The notes under the pieces: generated by a model
The model's input: the letters and a program-made list of their open reading frames with translations, nothing else
Database searches by the model: none
What the model was told of the DNA's origin: nothing
DNA from: Sulfurospirillum sp.
GTDB lineage: Bacteria; Campylobacterota; Campylobacteria; Campylobacterales; Sulfurospirillaceae
Reading direction: 5' to 3'
DNA: 44,971 nt
Assembly (NCBI GenBank): GCA_026988125.1
Contig: JALSLU010000118.1
Span: forward strand, 1 to 44,971
Position numbers and translations under genes: made by a program
Shown: piece after piece, positions 9,243-27,383 of the stretch
Numbering within the stretch: position 1 is the stretch's first letter
Layout of the letters: each line of letters starts with the position of its first letter

Positions 9243-9284
9243 TTAAGGGCACCTCTAAAAACCAGTTTTTAAAGGTGTCCTTAA
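9243..9284. repeat. 42-bp near-perfect palindrome; solo copy of the element A outer arm
   Basis: ttaagggcacctctaaaaacc / agtttttaaaggtgtccttaa. 18 nt (9246-9263, agggcacctctaaaaacc) match the reverse complement of 12259-12276 exactly. Confidence 0.85.
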
Positions 9285-11714: not shown

Positions 11715-12059
11715 TTGGAAATAGATGTAAAAGATGGTCAAATTCAAATAGAGATTTATGTTAGGGACAATATAAAAAGTATATCGGATAACGATAGACT
11801 TAAGCATACTATAGAGCAAGCATGTAAAGCTGATGATAAAAAACCTGTTCACATACATATAAAGGACTCATTTATAATTACATCTTCAGTTATAGGTTTT
11901 TTAATTAAGTATATAAAAAAAGATAAATTCCCAATCTATCTGTATGTTTATAATCAAGAGTTATATGATATGCTTGATGATATGGATTTAATTGGTCTGT
12001 TAAATATAAAGGGCGCCTCTAAAAACCCTAGCATATCTCAGAGGGATAAAAAAAGATGA
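11715..12059 (+). CDS. STAS-like small protein; last ~16 residues encoded by element A
   Basis: Short alpha/beta protein (HIHIKDSFIITSSVIGFLIKYIK) resembling STAS; terminal [15 protein letters not shown] lies within the palindromic element. Confidence 0.6.
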   Translation: MEIDVKDGQIQIEIYVRDNIKSISDNDRLKHTIEQACKADDKKPVHIHIKDSFIITSSVIGFLIKYIKKDKFPIYLYVYNQELYDMLDDMDLIGLLNIKGASKNPSISQRDKKR

Positions 12060-12276
12060 GATTGTGAAAAATCTTTTTTGAAGCGTAGCTGAAGCTACGG
12101 TGATAAAAAGTTTTTTGCAATATCGCTTTTTTTATCCCTCCCTTAGGGCACTACATAGGAGCTTACACTCTTCGTTACTCTTTTTCGCCTTAGCTTTGGC
12201 TAGGGCTTCAAAAGAGTGCCTTAATTGTAAACTCCTATGTAGTGCTGAGATATACTAGGGTTTTTAGAGGTGCCCT
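12010..12276 (-). repeat. Nested palindromic element A (reverse orientation relative to element B)
   Basis: Outer arms 12010-12041 / 12245-12276 (30/32 matching); hairpin 12041-12055 / 12126-12140 with apex CGTAGC-TGAA-GCTACG (12084-12099); palindrome CCCTTAGGG 12140-12148; hairpin 12148-12167 / 12226-12245 (19/20) with apex GCCTTAGC-TTTG-GCTAGGGC. Confidence 0.92.
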
Positions 12277-12285
12277 AAGAAAGGT

Positions 12286-27000: not shown

Positions 27001-27140
27001 CCTCAGGTCAAGCAGTAATATTACAACCTATGGCAATCTCTCTTGGTTTTGGTTTGGCATTTGCTACAATTTTGAATCTGTTTTATTTGCCGGTTTTGTA
27101 TAGTGTTATAACTGACCTTACGCACTATAAACACACCTAG
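24039..27140 (+). CDS. RND family efflux transporter permease (GTG start); 3' end lies in element B
   Basis: 1033 aa with two RND halves; GALIALGMLVDEAIVVAENIYRHLE, LTATATTIFAFLPLL, RPIMLTSLTTILGLSSL. Confidence 0.95.
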   Translation: MIKKFIEFAVDKSILNHIFLVFLFVMGFFAYKNIPKEIFPPSNLDSISITGSYVGASPDTLDKMAVKPIEDDVVNLNGIDRIESNIRSGFFSITLYLKDGVSKSEVLDDVKDVISSKKSDFPSDMSEPIAKIMKMNYPLISIAIASSSASKEQMLKVSNELKSRLSKIENLSDITIRGDSDKELLFKIDHQKLKAYGIGALEFVDALSKLSDIFPAGVIKQKGAHLYVSTMGGQINLNKLEDTTLDIRGKKIHLKDVATAQFGYEDTDQLSHFNGKPNLSISINKAKNGNAIALVKEIKLILKEFDKHYPNITFQTYSDSSIWIRNRLNTVISNIIFGLILVGFSVWVFVSGRIAFVVSLGIPVSFMIGLIWMEIFGYSLNMLSLLGALIALGMLVDEAIVVAENIYRHLENGDSPRDAAINGATEMFPAVLTATATTIFAFLPLLIMSGEMGVFMKILPIMISILLLSSLFEAFYFLPLHAKDFLKVKTQKKKNESLWIILNGVYSKVLKFLVAYKKITLTLFLVLTITLISYMLKNSKFQLFPDFDTTQIYISGKVNINSELKDTQKIVTKIEKILLEKLPKDEVSSIASVSGFMLDAKYKPHLGENNFHIFIDLRDRKPENFFNKYINPYLSPEYDDSNMKRQRSSKEILKEIKKITYDLAHSGEFEEFKAIVPGAGIVSSDVEIALSGDSEKLRDAIDELTKKLKSINGVYNCDNDLKPGKKELKLEVNRYGEMLGFSEKYISSILRPYFFKSEISKMFYNGELIKIRSQDRLKDRLSSLENFYVSVPNSAKKVFLKEVVNFNYKDGYADIYKDNGVRVSSVFASLDKEKITSSELLKMVEPTLQRFKKEGLKVYIKGEQKENKKIQKEMAEAGIIALFLIFIALVWMFDSILLSLVLLTTIPLSLLGVLVGHLVMGINLTMPGLLGIVGLSGVVVNDGIIIMDFIKRAKNIDELVEFATRRLRPIMLTSLTTILGLSSLIFFASGQAVILQPMAISLGFGLAFATILNLFYLPVLYSVITDLTHYKHT

Positions 27141-27383
27141 GCAGAATGAGAAAGCACTATATGCAAGGCAGTTTACTTTTAGCGTAGCCAAAGCTACAGT
27201 GAAAGTAAACTAACGAAGCAGATGGTGCTTTATCATTCTGTCCGTAGGATGATAAAATTTGCACCCTACTGCTGCGTCAGCATAGCTTCATAGTAGAATA
27301 ACTACAATTTTGCTATACTTCCTTGCATTAGAGTACAACTTTTATCACCTAGGCGTGCTTATAGTGCGTAAGGTCAGTTATAA
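27106..27383 (+). repeat. Nested palindromic element B
   Basis: Outer arms 27106-27141 / 27348-27383 (34/36 matching); hairpin 27142-27157 / 27225-27240 with inner stem GTTTACTTT/AAAGTAAAC and apex GTAGC-CAAA-GCTAC; palindrome TCCGTAGGA 27241-27249; second hairpin about 27246-27264 / 27333-27350. Confidence 0.92.

Follow-up and report, generated by a model that had tools for sequence, protein, structure and literature searches.

What is the large nested palindrome that occupies the end of a gene in this stretch of Sulfurospirillum DNA, and does its fold serve the host or the palindrome itself? An earlier note, made from the letters of the window (the whole stretch of 44,971 nucleotides that was analysed), offered two answers side by side, a structured RNA or a MITE/REP-like mobile element. 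In our view the palindrome, here called element A, is probably a MITE-type non-autonomous transposable element that is moved in trans by an IS5-family transposase and whose fold has been selected for the spread or the tolerance of the element. The evidence is comparative throughout, consisting of terminal repeats, target-site duplications, dispersal, an empty site, and insertion sequences (ISs) with the same ends.

The anatomy of element A is summarized in Table 1. The outer arms (12010–12041 and 12245–12276), the two hairpins, the 9-mer between them, and both apical stem-loops (CGTAGC-TGAA-GCTACG and GCCTTAGC-TTTG-GCTAGGGC) all lie where the earlier note had placed them, with the refinement that A12010 and T12276, at the outer tips of the arms, belong to the target-site duplication and not to the element proper. 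When folded as RNA, the + strand reaches −148.8 kcal/mol, compared with −70.5 ± 5.1 for shuffled sequences (z = −15.4), and does so in exactly the nested shape; the − strand reaches −142.6 (z = −16.9). None of 200 shuffles was as stable, hence the excess stability on which that note had made its suggestion depend is present on both strands. The left terminal inverted repeat reads GGGCGCCTCTAAAAACC here and GGGCACCTCTAAAAACC in most copies. Within hairpin Y, the internal loop sets AGATT (12059–12063) against AATAT (12119–12123), the latter being AAGAT in most relatives, which gives a tandem GA/GA; within hairpin X, the loop is formed by TTCGTTA (12171–12177) and GCCTT (12218–12222), in + strand letters. 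The suspected second palindrome, element B, proved to be real, with the architecture of A and a terminal repeat of its own; it belongs to a multicopy nested-palindrome family with candidate target duplications of variable length (4–6 bp), and its pairing of two X-type hairpins recurs in some other elements; no transposase was found for its ends.

Table 1. Features of elements A and B in the window
Feature	Position	Strand	Description	Basis
Element A proper	12011–12275	+	265 bp, Y-first orientation	copies, aligned ends, empty site
Target-site duplication, left copy	12007–12010	.	TAAA	sequence, aligned copies, empty site
Target-site duplication, right copy	12276–12279	.	TAAG, one base off the left copy	sequence, aligned copies, empty site
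Outer stem, left arm	12011–12041	+	terminal inverted repeat in its first 17 bases	
Outer stem, right arm	12245–12275	−	contains the right terminal inverted repeat GGGCACCTCTAAAAACC	
Hairpin Y	12041–12140	+		folding, alignment of relatives
Junction mini-stem	12140–12148	.	CCCTTAGGG	sequence and folding
Hairpin X	12148–12245	− (own reading direction)		folding, alignment of relatives
Core matched by covariance model R1	12041–12250	+	190.8 bits	
Minimal palindrome of element A terminal repeats only	9247–9280	.	34 bp, TTAA on each side	
Element B	27111–27378	+	268 bp, same architecture as A, terminal repeat ACTGACCTTACGCACT, two X-type hairpins	

The position of element A is informative. The empty site is seen in eleven relatives, where the gene upstream of element A lies directly next to a gene for a chemotaxis protein (MCP) and the upstream protein ends in ..LNVRKA*, ..LNIKKAM*, or a similar sequence. 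Element A of the window lies within the last codons of this upstream gene, to which it contributes 16 residues and a stop codon; in the resulting reading frame (11715–12059), these replace the original last few codons. The gene is called STAS-like from its sequence, a putative assignment, and it matched no Pfam or NCBIfam model. Elsewhere in the same genome, the 267-bp query occurs, whole or in part, at a minimum of 20 places, many of them truncated by contig ends, and the near-complete copies are 92–98% identical, except for one at 82%. The aligned copies have common ends (GGGCACCTCTAAAAACCCTAG), outside which lie 4-bp duplications: TTTA, TTTA, TTAA, ATAA, and ATAT at other copies, and TAAA/TAAG, with one mismatch, at element A. 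With up to two mismatches, the terminal repeat alone occurs 49 times in the genome, compared with 0 times for a reversed control pattern; besides full elements, there are scattered minimal palindromes made of the ends only, as well as solo half-ends.

A search for such ends in pairs led to IS5-family elements. Two genomes (G044 and G043) have ORFs, 343 and 347 aa in length, whose scores of 264 and 267 bits with the model NF033581 (cut-off 140) mark them as IS5-type DDE transposases; in a third (G091), the paired ends enclose a shorter ORF that is probably degraded. The ends of these three ISs read GGGCAYCTCTAAAAAC or GGGAACCTCTAAAAAC, and perfect 4-bp duplications flank two of them (TTAA in G044 and TAAA in G091), while none was present in the flanks of the G043 IS. 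Close homologues of the transposase in three further genomes (G076, G178, and G205) carry this end on one or both sides, and in the genome of the window itself, contig 101 carries the first 84 aa of the transposase (86% identity) beside the same end before it is cut by the contig end. ISs of the NF033581 clade thus have in common with element A the terminal repeat GGGCAYCTCTAAAAAC and the 4-bp, A/T-rich duplications, but element A contains no transposase gene and these ISs were found without the hairpin body. A period-800 array of ends in G043 was also considered as an IS and set aside, being a tandem repeat of a 119-aa ORF; L094 (contig G043:C31, 1055–6214) holds seven copies of this ORF, spaced exactly 800 bp apart and each repeat having element-like ends, an arrangement that is either a true tandem array or an artefact of assembly.

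Element A is short, non-coding, and multicopy, it has terminal inverted repeats and a target-site duplication, and an autonomous IS has the same ends, all of which are properties of a MITE. Its multicopy occurrence, the ends and duplications in common with IS5-family ISs, and the empty site in 11 relatives firmly support the view that it is a mobile insertion, and the mobile alternative raised in the earlier note therefore stands in its MITE-like form rather than in the REP-like one. Given the shared ends and the presence of an IS5-family IS in the genome, element A is best read as a non-autonomous derivative that a resident IS5-family transposase could mobilize. Such mobilization, which we infer from the shared ends and the target size, would have the DDE transposase recognize the terminal repeats in trans and create the 4-bp A/T-rich target duplications. 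Classical members of the IS5 subgroup make target duplications of the YTAR type. The duplications seen here are of the same length and A/T-rich, and TTAA fits this pattern, but TTTA, ATAA, and ATAT do not; this departure is a point against the explanation that we prefer, as is the mismatch at element A.

The ends identify a transposon; the body is less familiar. In its core, of 211 nt, two hairpins, homologous to each other and inverted in orientation, are linked by CCC-NNN-GGG, the mini-stem that reads CCCNNNGGG in 159 of 180 cores. Hairpins X and Y are similar to each other when one is inverted, and each has its own internal motif: AGATT opposite AAGAT in Y, with its tandem GA/GA internal loop, and AAGGC opposite YAACG in X. 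Across the order, relatives are of nearly equal size and shape while having little stem sequence in common. In a consensus of 71 pairs built from 27 cores that were aligned on sequence alone, 63 of the pairs show double compensatory changes. The covariation score is 0.722, where shuffles give 0.222 and sliding the partners gives no more than 0.162; none of 500 shuffles reached the observed value on any measure. The covariance-model search across Campylobacterota that had been proposed earlier was carried out with a model named R1, and it finds the core, with the same architecture, in 37 of 250 genomes and 18 of 55 genera, so that, together with the copies in its own genome, the architecture recurs at other loci and in other genomes. 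The structural alternative of the earlier note thus survives as a conserved fold, its pairs covarying across the phylum, with RNA as one candidate for the molecule that folds alongside single-stranded DNA.

A scan of GTDB genomes for the apex of hairpin X matched at least 120 contigs, nearly all from Campylobacterota, and relatives with a single hairpin are present in Campylobacterales metagenome-assembled genomes (MAGs), in a Myxococcota MAG (two copies), and, weakly, in a Patescibacteria MAG, the members outside Campylobacterota amounting to few loci. Those in the Myxococcota MAG PL23a_bin.40 are X-type (L249, 6125–6204, and L250, 7179–7258) and 86% identical to each other; that in Patescibacteria UBA2773 is also X-type (L295, 7789–7925). 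A match in Cellvibrionaceae (L258) was discarded as a chance match without the fold, and one in Alphaproteobacteria (L291), a real element, was set aside, as its 1.7-kb contig is possibly mis-binned. No match was found in the plasmid and phage collections searched.

Quasi-palindrome correction is an established mechanism for imperfect inverted repeats, and it is worth considering that element A could be a MITE whose palindrome is kept passively by template switching between the arms, in which case the covariation would reflect mutation bias. All of the variable parts are palindrome arms, and a few double changes do separate copies that are about 97% identical, as this idea would have it. However, the stems of families A and B in the genome of the window differ from their consensus by 68 single-sided changes (48 pair-breaking and 20 wobble) and only 5 compensated ones, which speaks against it. 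In addition, it should erase the fixed wobbles, the AGATT/AAGAT and AAGGC/YAACG loops, and the narrow range of core length, all of which persist across the phylum, and it leaves the association of one core with many terminal repeats unexplained. We therefore regard this account as unlikely. The predominance of single-sided changes implies that copies, once inserted, seem not to be held to the fold, and this suggests that the target of selection would be the spreading element and not a function in the host. It must be added that, among copies, substitution is lower at paired than at unpaired sites, unlike the prediction of pure post-insertion decay, and this is a point against our preferred reading.

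Could the fold nonetheless be useful to the host, as a structured RNA or as a cis-regulatory element that terminates, processes, or insulates transcripts and is kept for that function? The fold is very stable on both strands, its covariation is strong, and element A lies between cotranscribed genes; moreover, 70 of 130 insertion sites lie between codirectional genes, with 41 divergent and 19 convergent pairs (gene calls are ORF-based, and a simple ORF method treats all of these sites as intergenic). Set against this, the orthologous site is empty in the 11 relatives, copies neighbor unrelated genes, resident copies carry uncompensated stem changes, and the fold corresponds to no Rfam family. 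The absence of enrichment at convergent sites (19 of 130) removes the terminator reading, and the lack of any orientation bias relative to transcription among the intergenic sites (35:35) removes an orientation-dependent RNA function; single-hairpin elements, at 7:3, are too few to add to this. Taken together, these observations make a host function very improbable. As for Rfam, no family scored above its gathering threshold across the window, and relaxed thresholds returned sub-threshold microRNA-precursor noise, in element A and four relatives, as expected of any hairpin.

The mobile-element reading that we favor raises the matter of which strand folds. Wobble pairs provide a hint: hairpin Y on its own strand has 422 G-U and 56 A-C, and hairpin X, taken on the strand of Y, has 341 G-U and 152 A-C, with three fixed wobble pairs accounting for 257 of the 341. 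Without these three, X leans toward A-C (about 84:139), an argument that concerns a minority of its pairs. Fold energies are better for the Y-first strand in 23 of 27 cases, but the one-strand RNA reading that this invites lost strength when the two hairpins were tallied separately. Each hairpin may thus act single-stranded in its own direction, variable wobbles near the internal loops falling on its own + strand. As the two point in opposite ways, one of them would be correctly oriented whichever strand is exposed, in a transcript or in lagging-strand DNA, which would make the element independent of orientation; RNA and lagging-strand DNA both fit as the folding molecule, and single-hairpin elements, which ought to tell them apart, divide only 7:3 in orientation. 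In either form, the outer stem of about 32 bp, the homologous inverted hairpins, and the junction mini-stem would constitute a folded single strand selected for helping the element spread or be tolerated, not for use by the host.

Two homologous hairpins in inverted orientation are also the design of REPINs, and this, with the apparent preference of each hairpin for its own strand and their intergenic location, invites comparison with REP/REPIN elements and their RAYT transposases. An element of this kind would be mobilized as single-stranded DNA by a Y1 transposase (RAYT/TnpA-REP), its terminal repeats being incidental. We consider this very improbable: the ends and 4-bp duplications are of the IS5-family DDE type; in alignments of X and Y, the feet of the hairpins read CATAG/CTCAG or similar and show neither a GTAG nor a CGTC tag; and the hairpins, at about 100 nt, far exceed REP units, given as 20–40 bp (PMC3733652).

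SbcD is part of a nuclease that attacks long palindromes, and it scored above its family cut-off in 9 of 250 Campylobacterota genomes, one of the 9 carrying elements, compared with 8 of 14 control genomes. The phylum may thus be permissive to long palindromes, yet this does not explain which genomes carry the element, and SbcCD was dismissed as the deciding factor, SbcD being rare with or without elements.

Other MITE-like palindromes in bacteria include the Correia/NEMIS and ERIC types, and an outer stem around two internal hairpins is also seen in the T-shaped terminal repeats of parvoviruses. The latter resemblance is one of topology only, as element A has no replication protein, shows no homology to them, and is interspersed in chromosomes. 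Bacterial MITEs (for example, MITEAba12; PMC6382973) are, like element A, short, non-coding, and multicopy, with terminal inverted repeats and a target duplication; they are mobilized in trans by a related IS, as we propose for element A, and can fold along their whole length. The difference is that MITEs are usually defined by their ends and have interiors that are not conserved between families, whereas the interior of element A is a multi-branched fold with phylum-wide covariation that is joined to many unrelated ends. Hence, the new part is the body, a conserved core inside exchangeable ends with no Rfam entry; in a literature search with most subscription journals outside its coverage, no earlier description of the element was found.

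The exchangeability of the ends is seen among 112 distinct cores, in which full elements are mostly 265–275 bp long (a range conditioned on detection by R1) and have many unrelated terminal repeats, at least 10 families when counted by eye. Examples on the same core are GGGCACCTCTAAAAACC, AACCTGAGTTCGACGG, AGACTTCTTTCATAACC, AACTGACCTTACGCACT, TTACCGCACC, AAGTACCTAACC, AGGCTACTCCAAGGG, ATACCCATCCTAAA, GAGACCACTGCACA, and CTAGTACCGTTCACG. In one genome (G052), two elements with unlike ends (L030 and L044) have closely similar Y hairpins, which indicates a recent exchange of body or ends. The same body thus appears to have recombined with many terminal repeats, which would let several IS lineages carry it. 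Ends that match another element (L280), GAACCCTCTGAATAACC, belong to a second, divergent clade of IS5; for the other types of terminal repeat no matching transposase was found, one such search, for AACCTGAGTTCGACGG, failing to find any, and this lack counts against our explanation. An inverted pair of AACCTGAGTTCGACGG ends about 2.2 kb apart in L487 was rejected as the corresponding IS, as the genes that it encloses are ordinary and none of its ORFs encodes a transposase. One can imagine, more speculatively, that the selfish unit is the two-hairpin fold itself, a structured DNA/RNA module found throughout the phylum that repeatedly swaps terminal repeats, is therefore carried by several unrelated transposase lineages, and is recognized as a fold, on whichever strand is exposed, by a transposition or host factor; we advance this as a tentative idea that may well be wrong.

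Bacterial MITEs are usually seen as deletion derivatives in which the interior is unimportant, but here conservation lies in the interior, which covaries as strongly as structured RNAs do, while the ends can be exchanged, and it seems that the shape of the fold matters for how the element spreads. Whether folding assists a transposon in moving, in being tolerated, or in changing its carrier can thus be tested, and a model is available with which to search for a repeat whose copies often lie at contig ends and which appears to break many of the assemblies of this phylum. For example, in the 1.7 Mb of the genome of L203 (G367, MAG AP10.008), the ends AACCTGAGTTCGACGG occur at 279 sites, many of them at contig ends, and this genome contains single-hairpin elements of both the Y and the X type with these same ends. 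The size of the elements can also vary within a genome: in one genome, elements that share one set of ends range over 122–342 bp, have one hairpin or two, and carry at the apices a repeated insert of about 25 nt, and in G372, the elements L488, L489, L492, and L493 are enlarged by a common insert (GTCCTCACTTCGTTGCGGAGTT..., about 25 nt) that is located at the apex of hairpin X, of hairpin Y, or of both.
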